This document shows positions 56,565 through 62,521 of a stretch of DNA of 64,000 nucleotides, in pieces. The notes beneath the pieces are model-generated. The model did no database searches. It saw only the letters and a list, made by a program, of their open reading frames with translations, and was not told the origin of the DNA. Source of the DNA: Pirellulales bacterium. GTDB lineage: Bacteria > Planctomycetota > Planctomycetia > Pirellulales > JACPPG01. Position numbers and translations under genes: made by a program. Within the stretch, counting starts at the first letter, position 1; every line of letters begins with the position of its first letter. The stretch spans positions 1 through 64,000 of the forward strand of contig DASXEJ010000381.1 of the NCBI GenBank assembly GCA_036490175.1. Reading direction: 5' to 3'.

Positions 56565-57620
56565 TTAGCGCGACGACGGGCGCCACGTGCCAATGTCTGT
56601 GCTGACCGGCTTGGCGTACACCGCGGGCACCACGCTGCCGGCGGGCGTTGTGGAAATCGGCCGGGCGGCGGTCCGCGCATCGGCTTCGGTGTCGCGGCGC
56701 GGGGCCGATGCCGGACCGGCTTGCGTTCGCGGTTGCTCGGGCTCGGGATTCAGTTTAACGTCCGGCGGCGACGGATTACTCGGGTTGAACGGTGGGGCAT
56801 TGCCTCCCGAGGCCGGCGCGCTCGGCGACGTGCTGGGGGACGGATAGTTCGACGTGCCTTGGCTACCGGATCCGTAGATCGAGGTCCCGGCATTTGGCGC
56901 GCCAAACGTCGAGCTGCCCTGTGCCGGCGCGCTGAACGTCGAATTGCCTTGCGCCGGTGCACCGTAGGGGGACGTGCCTTGTGTCGGCGCGCTGTAGTTC
57001 GAACCGCTTTGCGTAGCCGGTCCGGGGTATGTCGGAATGTTCGAGCCGTAGTTAGCCGAATCTGCGCTCGGCGGATACAAAGACGGCGCCGGCGTGACGC
57101 CCGGCATCGCGGGTGGGGCGGGTGGGCCAGCCGCGGGTACGCCAGCACCACAGCAGGCCGGAGCAGGCGGGGGTGCAACCGGCATGGCCACGGGAGCCGG
57201 AGCCAGGTAGTTCGTCGTGTAGGCCGGGTAGGCGGCCGAATAGACCAGGCGGTACGAGCTGTAAGGCACGTACTGAGTCTGTTGCACCATCGTGGTCACC
57301 GGCCGCATCGTGGTCGTAGGGCCGCACAGACCGCAACGCGTCACCGGCTGGTAGGTAGTCACCGGCGAATTGACGACGACGGGGCGGAAATAGGTCTGCG
57401 GCACATAGTTGACCACAGCGGGCGCGGCGCATGGCGCGTAATAGCTGACCGCCGGCGGAGCAGGGGGCGGGACATAAACCGGTGCGGCGGGCGCAACCGG
57501 CGCAGCTGTTCCGCAGCCGCGGCACCAGTGAAAAATCGCTTTGCTCTCGGTCGGTCCGACCAACAGCGACCCCGCGAATGCGGAAGCCATGATCACGCTA
57601 CGAAGATTCAACTGTGTCAT
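56565..57620 (-). CDS. Secreted proline-rich protein with 10-residue repeats
   Basis: 351 residues with a signal peptide (to about residue 28). Two CxxC motifs (CRGC 33-36, CGLC 96-99), a Tyr/Pro-rich middle (YVPQTYFRPVVVNSP, QQTQYVPYSSYRLVYS), and six tandem 10-residue repeats at 205-264 of the form G-x-S-x-[YF]-x-A-P-x-Q. The rest is Pro/Ser/Gly-rich. Probably a cell-surface or cell-wall-associated protein; planctomycetes have relatives with the same Tyr/Pro block. No enzymatic domain. Confidence 0.75.
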   Translation of the reverse strand: MTQLNLRSVIMASAFAGSLLVGPTESKAIFHWCRGCGTAAPVAPAAPVYVPPPAPPAVSYYAPCAAPAVVNYVPQTYFRPVVVNSPVTTYQPVTRCGLCGPTTTMRPVTTMVQQTQYVPYSSYRLVYSAAYPAYTTNYLAPAPVAMPVAPPPAPACCGAGVPAAGPPAPPAMPGVTPAPSLYPPSADSANYGSNIPTYPGPATQSGSNYSAPTQGTSPYGAPAQGNSTFSAPAQGSSTFGAPNAGTSIYGSGSQGTSNYPSPSTSPSAPASGGNAPPFNPSNPSPPDVKLNPEPEQPRTQAGPASAPRRDTEADARTAARPISTTPAGSVVPAVYAKPVSTDIGTWRPSSR

Positions 57621-58107: not shown

Positions 58108-58767
58108 CTACTCTTTGCGCGGTCGGCGCATCTCGTACAAGTCGTACAAATCGAAAAACGTTTCGCGCAAGTCGCCTGGATGCGCAGCGTACGCGTTGAG
58201 CAGATCATCACGGGTGACCAGGGTTTCGTCAGGGACCAGCAATTGGAACACGCGCGCAGCTATGGTGGCGTCGATCGCTGTATCCGCCAAAAGGGGAAGT
58301 CCGACGCTTTTGTGAGCCGTAACGATCAGCCCGTGCTCCTGGCGATGACACTGCCGGCGCAAGCGACACTTGTTCCAGGGCGCCAACTGCTCGTATCCGT
58401 CGACGATGACGATCGTGCGCCTTCCGGCCTTGGCCAAAGTCGCGCGATGCGCGGCCAGCGATCGTTCGCCGTCGTGCAGTGTGATCAGCAGCGGGTCACG
58501 GCCGGCGTCGCTTAGCAACGGAAGCAGCATGGCCAATAGCGTGGATTTGCCGCTACCGTGGGGACCAATGATTTGCCCGCGCCAACCGTCAGAGCGCAGC
58601 CGCTCGACGAGCATCGCAGCGTCGAGGCCGGCAGGAAACAGATATGCAAGCGCCCCGGGTCGAACGCGGCACGTGGAAAACGGATTCGACGCACTGCGGT
58701 CATTGTCGGCGGACCGGGGCGCGGCGACTTTGACGCCAAATTCGCGGTGACCTGCTGCATCGCTCAT
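58108..58767 (-). CDS. Small P-loop ATPase of a three-gene operon
   Basis: 219 residues from ATG 58767, overlapping the upstream stop as ATGA. Walker A GPHGSGKST at 68-76, Walker B TIVIVDGYE at 118-126, and a sensor-like LIVTAH at 147-152. The Cys/His pair at 134-145 may be structural. No ABC signature, so more like an ExeA/AAA-type switch or a loader ATPase. Third gene of DUF3592-arrestin, arrestin, ATPase, so likely works with them at the membrane. Confidence 0.75.
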   Translation of the reverse strand: MSDAAGHREFGVKVAAPRSADNDRSASNPFSTCRVRPGALAYLFPAGLDAAMLVERLRSDGWRGQIIGPHGSGKSTLLAMLLPLLSDAGRDPLLITLHDGERSLAAHRATLAKAGRRTIVIVDGYEQLAPWNKCRLRRQCHRQEHGLIVTAHKSVGLPLLADTAIDATIAARVFQLLVPDETLVTRDDLLNAYAAHPGDLRETFFDLYDLYEMRRPRKE

Positions 58768-59165
58768 GGCAATACGGCCCGCGCCGCCGGAATGGTGCCA
58801 AGCCGGAACGGGCATTCTTCGACCAATTGCTTGCCGCGCGCCAGGAAGACGCGCAGACGAACACACCAGCGAATCTTGACAATCACCCCGTCGTAAGTGA
58901 GTGGCGAATTGGGAAGCACAGTGCTGAATTGCCGGGGGCCGAGAAAAGCGATCTGTCCGGTCTCGTCGACCGTGGCCCGCTCGAAGGAGTGGACCGCCAT
59001 GTCCTCGTCCCCTTTGCCCTCGGTCGTCCACAGCACCGAGATTTCCAAGGCTTGCGATTCACCTCCGGGCGGGGCATGGACCTGGTATGTGCCGCTGAGC
59101 GTGTCACCCGGCTGGTAGGCCTCGCGCGGCTCGTTGAGTGTCACGGTGAGGATGGGTACGCTCAT
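58764..59165 (-). CDS. Arrestin-like fold protein
   Basis: 133 residues from ATG 59165 (ATGA overlap with the upstream gene). PILTVTLNEPREAYQPGDTLSGTYQV followed by LEISVLWTTEGKGDEDMAVH and a strand-rich end with IVKIRWCVRLRVFLARGK matches the N-terminal half of an arrestin/Spo0M-type beta sandwich. No membrane segment. Couples physically or translationally to its neighbours by overlapping starts and stops. Confidence 0.7.
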   Translation of the reverse strand: MSVPILTVTLNEPREAYQPGDTLSGTYQVHAPPGGESQALEISVLWTTEGKGDEDMAVHSFERATVDETGQIAFLGPRQFSTVLPNSPLTYDGVIVKIRWCVRLRVFLARGKQLVEECPFRLGTIPAARAVLP

Positions 59166-60457
59166 CGGCCATCCTCTCGGGCGATGCGCGGACGAATCAC
59201 GACCGGAAAGCTGCGTTCGAAGTCGGGCCATTGCTCGGCGGCCCCTTTGACGACAAACTTCCAGCCAATTTGATTATGAGCTGCCTTGAACGAGTGCATG
59301 GCGTCGAGCGGGACAGTAAGCGTAGCGCGTGCTTCCGAGGAGACGCTGTCTCCCGCCGCGGTCTGTTCGCAGGTAGCGAGCAATTGCTCATAGACGCGAC
59401 GTATGGCCTTGCGGGTGTTTGTGCCCTGGCGGTAGGTGGTCGTTTCTTCGCAGACCAGCTTCAAGTCGAGCCGTTTGATTGTCAGACGGCCTGCCTGCGC
59501 CATGTAAACTTCGTACTCTCCGCCCGGCACAAGCGGATTTGCCGAAATCTCGACCAGTGTGGGCCCGATACCCGTGGCGATACGCAATGCCCGTATCAGC
59601 AGCCACGCAAACACGACGCCGATCAGCACGCAGGGGATTACAAAGACGGTGAGCAGCCAATCCGGAGCACCTTCCTCGAAGCTGTGCATTACCATCCGCA
59701 CAAAGATCGCCACGGTGCCGTTCCACAACAGGCAAACAAGCGCCGTGGCAACCAGGCTCCATCCCCCCGTGCCGGGCGGTAATCGATAGGCCAGGACCGT
59801 GCCGGGACTGTCGTTCAGATCCTGCGGATCGGGCACAAAGGGGTACGGATCCGCGGTTGCATTCTGCGGCGGCAAAAAGAAATCCAGCCCGGGCGCGTGC
59901 TGCGCGGATGCTGCGATGCGCTCGGTCGACTTACCCCAGGTCAAAATCGTATAGATCAACCCACCGCCGCCGACCGAGATGAAGGACCCGGGAATCAACA
60001 ACATCAGCCAGGCGAACCAGGTATAACCGCGCGCGAAGACGACGTTTTCCGGCTGGTCGGGGTCGTACCAGCAATGGTACTCGTCGCCAATTTGGAATTG
60101 ATCCAAAATCGTTTGCGCACGTTGGGCGTCGGCCTGGAATTCACCCCGGACGTCGTAATGGCTCCAGGCGGTGAGGTTCCGACCGTCGACCTCGTAGGCG
60201 ACGTGAATCTCGGGGCGCGTCAAACGCGTGTTATTCATGAGCAGCCGCGTCTCGAGCACGCGGCCGGTGGTTTCCACAAAGTCGTGGTTGGCGCGCCACT
60301 CGGGAATCGACAGCTTTAAAACGACGAAGGCCAACGAGATAACGCCGGCGACGAAGAAGACGGCGGCGAACAACCCCAGAGCGGCGCGCCCGGCCGTGGT
60401 CGAGCCGGTGCGACGCTCGCCGCGCTTCTTGCCGAGTAGGAAGGTCCAACGCGCCAA
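59162..60457 (-). CDS. DUF3592 membrane protein with C-terminal arrestin-like domain
   Basis: 431 residues from a TTG at 60457 with GGAG seven bases upstream; an ATG 78 bases further left has no SD. Four membrane helices near 25-48, 147-172, 233-255 and 267-292. The DUF3592 part (55-145) has GRVLETRLLMNN and YHCWYDPDQPENVVF. The C-terminal domain (296-424) has SANPLVPGGEYEVYMAQAG and HSFKAAHNQIGWKFVVKGAAEQWPDFERSFPVVI, an arrestin-like ending. First gene of a tightly overlapping operon with a free arrestin-like protein and an ATPase. Confidence 0.75.
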   Translation of the reverse strand: MARWTFLLGKKRGERRTGSTTAGRAALGLFAAVFFVAGVISLAFVVLKLSIPEWRANHDFVETTGRVLETRLLMNNTRLTRPEIHVAYEVDGRNLTAWSHYDVRGEFQADAQRAQTILDQFQIGDEYHCWYDPDQPENVVFARGYTWFAWLMLLIPGSFISVGGGGLIYTILTWGKSTERIAASAQHAPGLDFFLPPQNATADPYPFVPDPQDLNDSPGTVLAYRLPPGTGGWSLVATALVCLLWNGTVAIFVRMVMHSFEEGAPDWLLTVFVIPCVLIGVVFAWLLIRALRIATGIGPTLVEISANPLVPGGEYEVYMAQAGRLTIKRLDLKLVCEETTTYRQGTNTRKAIRRVYEQLLATCEQTAAGDSVSSEARATLTVPLDAMHSFKAAHNQIGWKFVVKGAAEQWPDFERSFPVVIRPRIAREDGR

Positions 60458-60741
60458 ATCTGGGACTCCACTTGCAAATTCTCGACACCGATCGCGGCAT
60501 GTCCCGGCCGGGGTTGCGACGATCACCGTTATCAAGCTCTATGGGCCGACATACTATAATGGCCGGGCCAGAGTTCGGCAGACCATTTCGCCCGCCGATT
60601 ATCTACGCGTGAAACGCATTAAGGATTGCCTGCTTGAACATAATCTATCGTTCATCGCTGCGCGGTGTCTGTCGAATATTGCCGCGCGGGTCGTGGCAAC
60701 ATTCCGTGTACGCCATCGACCCGGGAGCCGCCGCTAGGACC

Positions 60742-62151
60742 GTGCAGATCGAGCCGGACGTCAGCAAGCGGCGCCATAGCCGCCTGCGGTGCGTTAGCCA
60801 TTGTATCGCCTGCGTCATCGCCTGTGGTCTGCTGGGAAGCATGATGGTCAAACCGGCCCTCGGGGCCGCGCCCGACGAAAAAGTCGGTCCGCAGCCTGCC
60901 GCGAGCGCTTGGCCTCAATGGCGTGGACCGATGGGGCGCGCCGTGCTGACGGATACCGCCTTGCCGGCGCCGTGGCCTGCGCAACCTCTGAGGGAAGTCT
61001 GGCACGCGCGGCTCGGCACTGGCTGGTCAAGTCCCGTAGTGGTTGACGGTCGTGTATTCATCACCGACCGGCAGGGAGCAGTCGAGCGCGTGCTGGCCTT
61101 CGATGCCGACAGTGGCCGTGAGCTATGGCAAAAGTCACACGCCGTGGACTTCGATCCGCACCCGGTAGGTCGGCGGCATGGCAACGGTCCGAAAGCGACA
61201 CCGCTGGTGAGCAACGGCAAAGTTTACGCCGTGGGGATTGCGGGTCGACTCGATTGCCTGCGCGCCGCCGATGGCGAGATCGTGTGGCAGCTCGACTATC
61301 CCGCGCAATTCGGCGCGCGCCAGACTCTGCCTGGGGGGCGCGCCCGCGTTAATGGTACCGAGAATGTCATCGTGCCAGTCGGAAAGGGGCAGGGGGCGCC
61401 CGTGCCGCTGTTTGGCTACACGGGATCTCCGACCATCAGCGGCGAACTTTTGATCACGCCGGTCGGCGGTCAGAACGCCGGCACGATCGTAGCTTTTCAG
61501 CGGGATACGGGTCGCGTGGCCTGGAAGACACTCGACGAGAATGTCTCCTACTCGTCCCCGGTGGTTGCCGAGATTGGCGGTAAGACGCAAGTCGTGGCAA
61601 TGACGGGACCGCGCGTAGTGGGTTTGGACGCTGCCGACGGCGCGCTGCTGTGGAGTCATCCGTTCCAGGTGCAATACGACGAGAGCATCAGCACGCCGGC
61701 GATTGCCGGCGATACGGTGCTGGTCACGGCCACCGGGCGGCCGCTGACCGCATTGCGTATCAGCCGCGACGGCAATAAATACAAAAAGCAGGTCGCTTGG
61801 ACCAACGAGATATTGTCGAGCTATTTATCGAGCATGGTCACCAGCGGCGAGCACGTGTATGGCATGAACGACGGTGGCGAGTTCTCGTGCCTGCGCCTGA
61901 GCGACGGCAAGATCCTTTGGACCGGCGGCAACCACGGGTATTACTGCTCGCCGATTCTTGCCGGCCGGCGCTTGCTCGCGCTCAACGAACGAGGCAGCCT
62001 GGCCGTGCTGGCCGCCGATCCGGCCGGCTACCAGGAGCTTGGCGCGAGCCAACTGGCAACAGGCGAAACGTGGACCATGCCGGCCATTGTCGGTAGCCGC
62101 ATCTATGTGCGCAGCGGCGACGGGCTTGCCTGCTTTGACCTGCAGCGCTGA
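60742..62151 (+). CDS. Secreted PQQ-like beta-propeller protein
   Basis: 469 residues from a GTG at 60742, chosen because the hydrophobic signal (CIACVIACGLLGSMMVKPALGAA) follows closely; an ATG at 60634 is an alternative. PQQ-like blades: WPQWRGPMG at the start, then VLAFDADSGRELWQKS, LDCLRAADGEIVWQLDY, IVAFQRDTGRVAWKTLD, VVGLDAADGALLWSHPF, CLRLSDGKILWTGG. Structural propeller rather than a dehydrogenase, as catalytic residues are absent. A typical planctomycete secreted scaffold. Confidence 0.85.
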   Translation: MQIEPDVSKRRHSRLRCVSHCIACVIACGLLGSMMVKPALGAAPDEKVGPQPAASAWPQWRGPMGRAVLTDTALPAPWPAQPLREVWHARLGTGWSSPVVVDGRVFITDRQGAVERVLAFDADSGRELWQKSHAVDFDPHPVGRRHGNGPKATPLVSNGKVYAVGIAGRLDCLRAADGEIVWQLDYPAQFGARQTLPGGRARVNGTENVIVPVGKGQGAPVPLFGYTGSPTISGELLITPVGGQNAGTIVAFQRDTGRVAWKTLDENVSYSSPVVAEIGGKTQVVAMTGPRVVGLDAADGALLWSHPFQVQYDESISTPAIAGDTVLVTATGRPLTALRISRDGNKYKKQVAWTNEILSSYLSSMVTSGEHVYGMNDGGEFSCLRLSDGKILWTGGNHGYYCSPILAGRRLLALNERGSLAVLAADPAGYQELGASQLATGETWTMPAIVGSRIYVRSGDGLACFDLQR

Positions 62152-62248: not shown

Positions 62249-62521
62249 CTACACGCCCACGGGCTGGGCTTTTGCGCGGCGTGCAAAGCCGATGCTGCCG
62301 AGGGCTTTGTAGACTTCGTCGAGCGTCTTCTCGCCAAAGTTCGAGATACTCAACAAGTCTTCGCGGGTACACTGCAGCAGGTCGTGAACGGTGAAGATGC
62401 CGCGCTCTTCCAGGCAGTTCGTGGTGCGGACCGAAAGTCCGATTTCGGCGGTGCTCATCTCGAGCCGCTCGGTCAGTTCCTTGGCCTTCTCGTCGATAGC
62501 GCTAAGTGGAATGCGCGTCAT
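62249..62521 (-). CDS. Stand-alone RNA polymerase alpha C-terminal-domain-like protein
   Basis: 90 residues. IGLSVRTTNCLEERGIFTVHDLLQCTREDLLSISNFGEKTLDEVYKALGSIGF reproduces the alpha-CTD fold (two helix-hairpin-helix motifs, with RTTNCL and the NFG-KTLDEV segment). It has no alpha N-terminal domain and a 25-residue N-terminal helix instead. GGGAGGG precedes the ATG. It could bind DNA, act as a regulator that competes with the real alpha-CTD, or be an RNA polymerase partner. Confidence 0.85.
   Translation of the reverse strand: MTRIPLSAIDEKAKELTERLEMSTAEIGLSVRTTNCLEERGIFTVHDLLQCTREDLLSISNFGEKTLDEVYKALGSIGFARRAKAQPVGV

Follow-up and report, generated by a model that had tools for sequence, protein, structure and literature searches.

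Described Arrestin-Type Proteins and AAA+ ATPases

In eukaryotes, the alpha-arrestins and VPS26 consist of two arrestin lobes and serve as adaptors at membrane proteins, and a bacterial protein of the arrestin clan, Spo0M, is already in print (PMC2515105 for both points). The locus described here, found in a member of the Pirellulales (Planctomycetota), is composed of three genes, named A, B, and C, encoding, respectively, a membrane protein with a DUF3592 domain and a C-terminal domain predicted to be of arrestin type, a putative single-domain arrestin-type protein, and a small ATPase of predicted AAA+ fold. Spo0M, the top Foldseek match of the domain of A, is like it in belonging to the bacterial arrestin clan; it is unlike A and B in that its Pfam model is matched by one of 42 homologues of B and by none of the 40 homologues of A. 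Spo0M is soluble and possesses neither transmembrane (TM) helices nor DUF3592, and no ATPase gene is known to be dedicated to it. The alpha-arrestins ARRDC3 and TXNIP, together with VPS26, share the arrestin domain with A (Z 12.3 and 11.9; see below), whereas in the present case the lobes are separate genes or are joined by a TM hairpin, an AAA+ ATPase is co-encoded, and the host is a bacterium.

As to the ATPase, its predicted fold aligns over residues 22-219 with RFC, ORC/Cdc6, and MgsA/RarA, from which C differs in lacking a collar or winged-helix domain and in having a DG-x-E Walker B. The MoxR-VWA and RavA-ViaA systems are also to be considered, being composed of an AAA+ ATPase with membrane-associated beta-sandwich partners; judging from the families matched, however, C belongs to another ATPase clade, and an arrestin-type domain replaces the VWA domain. 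The first-pass annotation of this DNA knew of no described system of such composition; no description of an arrestin-AAA+ unit was found in the open-access literature searched, where DUF3592 led to one paper, on a beta-lactamase. As far as the search extended, the folds are already known and the assembly of A, B, and C is undescribed.

Organization of the Locus

The window, that is, the whole stretch of 64,000 nucleotides that was analysed, is part of one contig of a genome of 7.58 Mb. All three open reading frames are present in its sequence and lie on the minus strand between positions 58108 and 60457: A at 59162-60457 (431 aa), B at 58764-59165 (133 aa), and C at 58108-58767 (219 aa). The stop codon of A and the start codon of B overlap at 59162-59165, as do those of B and C at 58764-58767; at both junctions the plus strand reads TCAT and the coding strand ATGA, as first reported, and the inference then drawn that the genes are made together is in line with the co-transcribed layout that two such overlaps support. 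The start codon of A is TTG, a start supported by homologues that align from the same position (M-x-R...KKRGxRRTGS).

Around the set, genes for UvrD, a PQQ propeller, an alpha-CTD-like protein, and a Pro-rich protein are syntenic in 14-15 of the 28 loci examined; since they do not recur beyond close relatives in 16 loci outside the order, this is taken as order-level synteny only. The propeller (60634-62151, plus strand; syntenic in 14/28) is a divergent PQQ/BamB-like protein (E 1.8e-32), while the minus-strand gene at 62249-62521 (15/28) encodes a free-standing RNA polymerase alpha C-terminal domain protein of 90 aa (E 7.9e-20); at three loci of family f18 (L144, L145, and L147) a separated A still lies beside the alpha-CTD-like gene, which is close to A in the window too, B-C having moved away. 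The Pro-rich, secreted-looking protein (56565-57620, minus strand; 14/28) has no Pfam match, and its gene is retained after the separated C (G008; L139), as in the window.

The Membrane Protein Encoded by Gene A

From its basic N terminus onwards, A comprises a first TM segment (TM1, 60296-60397; hydrophobic residues 21-54, helix 20-58 in the model), the DUF3592 domain (60026-60271; residues 63-144; Pfam PF12158, E 9.1e-10), TM2 (59951-60010; residues 150-169 by hydropathy, helix 154-172 in the model), a TM3-TM4 hairpin (59567-59761; residues 233-297 by model and hydropathy, with hydrophobic segments at 233-257 and 263-297) that matches the hairpin of the fused proteins described below, and the arrestin-type domain (59177-59566; residues 298-427), the equivalent of the second lobe of those proteins. 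PF12158 is matched above threshold in the window (39.5 bits, cut-off 25.3) and by 38 of 40 A homologues (E <= 0.1). The helices, recognized both by hydropathy and in the model, together with this match, agree with the earlier description of a membrane-anchored arrestin protein with DUF3592.

An arrestin-type beta-sandwich fold is predicted for the C-terminal domain. In the AlphaFold2 model of A (mean pLDDT 85, pTM 0.60), the best Foldseek matches of this domain are Spo0M (PDB 5cl2) and ARRDC3 (E 2e-7), followed by TXNIP, VPS26C, and beta-arrestins; VIA-align gives Z 12.3 over 135 aligned residues (rmsd 3.4 A) against ARRDC3, and Z 11.9 against VPS26B. No arrestin-clan model is among the Pfam families matched by the 40 A homologues at E <= 0.1, so that the assignment rests on the predicted fold; the Spo0M model (PF07070) matched neither A nor B of the window at E <= 1.

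The N terminus of A carries six Lys and Arg against one Asp or Glu; from this charge bias DUF3592 is predicted to be extracytoplasmic and, the number of helices being even, the arrestin domains would lie in the cytoplasm. DUF3592 is not indispensable to the unit, since A genes without it exist at L045 and L047, where the alignment has the helices and the arrestin domain kept. The A genes of L234 and L229 carry two successive DUF3592 units, and those of L085 and L238 are broken by an in-frame stop or a change of frame. The TM1-DUF3592-TM2 portion (60026-60397) bears a weak likeness to the beta subunits of BK channels (Foldseek 9czh_E, E 1.9e-5 but rmsd 8.4; Pfam CaKB in 4 of 40 A homologues).

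The Soluble Protein Encoded by Gene B

No TM segment was found in B by hydropathy, as expected from its first description as a soluble arrestin-like protein. The Pfam model Arrestin_C is matched by the window protein below the curated cut-off (17 bits versus 27.7; E 0.0074); among 42 B homologues at E <= 0.1, Arrestin_C is matched by 20 (best 4.3e-6), Arrestin_N by 17, Vps26 by two, and Spo0M by one, and in the PDB the B profile found four weak matches, each to VPS26 or TXNIP (E 0.62-0.68). This profile evidence points to B being a second, different arrestin-type domain, whose most conserved stretch in the alignment is LPNSPLTYDGVIVKIRWCVRLRVF (residues 84-107; 58845-58916, minus strand). The claim that A and B share an arrestin-like fold is supported by structure prediction for A and, for B, where the fold is putative, by profiles, with the qualification that they are not simply similar copies: compared by hhalign, B and the arrestin domain of A showed no mutual match (probability 0.1%).

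The Small ATPase Encoded by Gene C

C, which carries an NPF motif in its N-terminal part, is assigned to the AAA+ ATPases by its predicted fold: the AlphaFold2 model (pLDDT 90.7) has an AAA+ fold with a helical lid, and Foldseek and VIA-align match it with RFC, ORC, Cdc6, and MgsA (residues 22-219 aligned, Z 12-13), the top VIA-align match being RFC (Z 13.0, 186 aligned residues, rmsd 3.6). The Walker A motif is GPHGSGKS (residues 68-75; 58543-58566, minus strand), with K74 and S75 invariant in 43/43 sequences; in the Walker B region, VIVDGYEQL (58384-58413, minus strand), D123 and G124 are likewise invariant in 43/43 and E126 is conserved in 98%, the canonical DE being replaced by DG (DG-x-E). 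H152 is also invariant in all 43, and the sole invariant Arg of the 43 C sequences is R201, found in the lid within GDLRE (58165-58167, minus strand), at what we take to be the sensor-2-like position. Between H152 and R201, presumably the sensor-1 to sensor-2 interval where box VII would lie, no conserved Arg that might act as an Arg finger was found in the 43 sequences. Both the Walker B DE and the Arg finger are variable within the AAA+ superfamily. The DG-x-E Walker B and the lack of a conserved Arg between sensor-1 and sensor-2 are easier to reconcile with a switch than with a translocating ring. ATP could still be hydrolysed by C via E126.

An ABC ATPase was considered and rejected: no LSGGQ is present in C, as the first reading of a small ATPase without ABC signature had it, ABC_tran scores 22 bits against a cut-off of 25, and the predicted fold is AAA+. 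As regards a possible NACHT or STAND identity of C, the NACHT Pfam family is matched by 24 of 43 C homologues at E <= 0.01, and no NACHT or STAND structure is among the 50 matches listed for the C model. Within the window's own genome, the only other match to C is a RarA-like protein (named by eye). At L052 and L124, C is split by a long in-frame insert, giving two separated profile matches.

Fused Relatives and the Two Lobes

The relationship between A and B is illuminated by fusions. At one locus of the Pirellulales (L016) they form a single open reading frame, with a linker rich in Pro, Ala, Ser, and Glu between them; at another, outside the order (L229), B is in one frame with the A that has two DUF3592 units. 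In distant planctomycetes, one polypeptide, about 330-540 aa long, has the arrangement arrestin, hydrophobic TM hairpin, arrestin; it was matched in 10 of 246 genomes (E <= 1e-20), four further matches of the same search being A genes of family f66. The B profile aligns with the first half only of this protein (hhalign 97.4%, E 1.5e-11), the hairpin and arrestin domain of A with its second half (99.3%, E 4.8e-20). At L090, L091, and L148, a P-loop gene with the NPF motif lies within 100 bases of the fused gene; at L093 the end of such a gene is present beside it, at the contig edge. The profile of this C-like ATPase aligns with C over the ATPase core and a C-terminal LYD/LYE motif (97.2%, E 2.9e-11). 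No ATPase was found next to the fused gene in the DNA around L089, L092, L094, and L245, a point against the machine proposed below. From the mapping of the fusions and the adjoining C-like gene, A and B look like two parts of a membrane-anchored arrestin with two lobes, which C would serve as a dedicated ATPase. Neither the window, where the domains belong to two genes, nor the fused relatives, which hold a TM hairpin between the lobes, have two arrestin domains in one soluble chain as VPS26 does.

Distribution of the Gene Set

B was found (E <= 1e-3) in 347 of 396 Pirellulales genomes (228 of 252 when only those of good quality are counted) and is represented in 134 of 144 genera. Gene order was followed in 63 loci, comprising the window's own and others hand-picked from the best B matches listed, with at least one per listed family, and so not a random sample (families f4 and f6 were left out); A-B-C is contiguous in 51 of them, eight have no adjacent A (two of the eight run into the end of a contig), three have no adjacent C, and one has B alone. 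A non-adjacent A gave a profile match elsewhere in all seven genomes searched, G066 showing only a partial gene, about 1.9 kb from B, where a contig begins; a non-adjacent C was strongly matched elsewhere in four genomes (G008, G026, G168, and G419), and in G034 and G004 the search for C returned weak P-loop matches only. G034 (83% complete), having A-B and no C found, is a point against the machine proposed below. With two loci found via A and C the collection rises to 65, of which 53 are A-B-C; here NTGA overlaps join A to B in 44 of the 56 loci having A (one further is the fusion) and B to C in 26 of 61.

Contigs of a named collection were also searched. The B alignment retrieved 293 relatives, and C alone as query none; among the best 80 of the 293, some of which duplicate the same assemblies, 53 are A-B-C, seven have A-B without C, 12 have B-C without A, two have B only, and six are cut by the contig end. 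The closest B genes are in records labelled Planctomycetia, Pirellulales, Pirellulaceae, and Thermoguttaceae. Among the A-B-C loci are those of records labelled Blastopirellula marina (L186) and Rhodopirellula sp. (L163). One record named Candidatus Nealsonbacteria (L160) carries a Pirellulales-type locus and is probably a mis-binned contig.

The distribution in the rest of the phylum is patchy. In one draw of 246 Planctomycetota genomes C was present in 20 (E <= 1e-12), four from the Pirellulales and 16 from outside the order, and the set is absent from the other 226; most planctomycetes outside the Pirellulales are devoid of it. A search for A (E <= 1e-15) gave matches in 32 genomes, with DUF3592 and arrestin in 20, the arrestin part only in four (the fused type), and DUF3592 only in eight; full-length A occurs in exactly the 20 genomes with C, which span 11 families, a co-occurrence given here uncorrected for relatedness. 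Among the 16 outside the order, A and B are adjacent in all and A-B-C in 13, with C located apart from A-B in three genomes of one genus; apart from genes shared between close relatives, no other neighbour recurs across these 16 loci, and the conserved unit is therefore A, B, and C. Two loci (L095 and L096) with an A-B pair lacking both DUF3592 and a nearby C are weaker evidence against a fixed set. For 35 loci, the distances obtained with A, with B, and with C are correlated (r 0.74-0.80; maximum of 500 shuffles 0.25), a result that shared vertical descent alone would also be expected to give.

According to these surveys, the A-B-C arrangement is far beyond chance. Conserved linkage, which the first-pass annotation had proposed to look for, was found both in the Pirellulales (51/63 loci) and outside the order (13/16); the arrestin fold, on which its reading equally depended, was obtained by structure prediction for A only. 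Neither of the two outcomes that it had named as refuting was thus observed.

Possible Function of the A-B-C Unit

On sequence grounds, the three genes are inherited together, with the composition and domain mapping given above. We tentatively propose, with somewhat less than even confidence, that A, B, and C make up one membrane-attached machine, in which a two-lobe arrestin pair grips a client and C is the ATP switch. A and B would assemble on the cytoplasmic face into the two-lobe arrestin, which may grip a client, probably a membrane protein held by the portion of it that lies in the cytoplasm. DUF3592 would face outward and sense a signal or position the complex. C would be the nucleotide switch: its ATP-bound form would dock on the arrestin pair and open or release it, and in this way ATP would regulate the binding of the client. 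The more specific idea of a planctomycete client-gripping arrestin, with lobes split between membrane and soluble proteins and loaded or released by an AAA+ ATPase, as a counterpart of the eukaryotic arrestin/VPS26 adaptors, is rather doubtful.

An AAA+ system for maturation or chaperoning, like MoxR-VWA or RavA-ViaA, with C working on an envelope complex and the arrestin domains as adaptors presenting substrates to it, would account for the similar make-up (a small AAA+ protein, a membrane-anchored beta-sandwich protein, and a soluble beta-sandwich partner); it is nonetheless fairly unlikely, considering that neither MoxR nor VWA is among the matches listed for A or for C (for the latter, 25 of 39 families), that the conserved set consists of these three genes only, and that C has no conserved candidate for an Arg finger. 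Unlikely, too, is a sensing or signalling unit in which DUF3592 reads the outside, the arrestin pair relays, and C acts as a nucleotide timer, for instance in division as for Spo0M. The loci L045 and L047 have lost DUF3592 and kept the rest, and outside the order no gene for a kinase, a regulator, or an output is found repeatedly beside the set; such a unit would agree, however, with the ectodomain between the TM helices of A and with Spo0M being the nearest bacterial structural match of A, the Bacillus protein being reported at the septum and poles and to co-precipitate with FtsZ (PMC5325327).

For a role of the set in membrane remodelling, sorting, or signalling, as the first-pass annotation envisaged, the case does not go beyond analogy. 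A retromer-like or coat-like device for remodelling or sorting would be suggested by the similarity of the A domain to VPS26 and ARRDC3, and the membranes of Planctomycetota are unusual; a common fold is, however, no proof of function, among the neighbours compared, no partner like VPS35 or VPS29 recurred, and the unit is patchy outside the Pirellulales and absent from most planctomycetes, all of which renders this explanation quite improbable. Least credible of all is an anti-phage or toxin-type unit, to which an AAA+ or STAND-like ATPase with a patchy occurrence outside the order might lead: PADLOC gave only weak P-loop matches, a plasmid search gave no match, and within one order the genes are near-universal and syntenic (B in 347/396).

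Eukaryotic cells depend on adaptors with the arrestin fold for controlling receptors and sorting proteins; the relative known to date from bacteria is Spo0M. If the proposed machine is correct, two arrestin lobes tied both to an ATPase and to the membrane would offer a tractable system in which to study the roles that arrestin folds had before eukaryotes; in addition, a gene set that the majority of a large order of bacteria have in common gains a hypothesis for its function.
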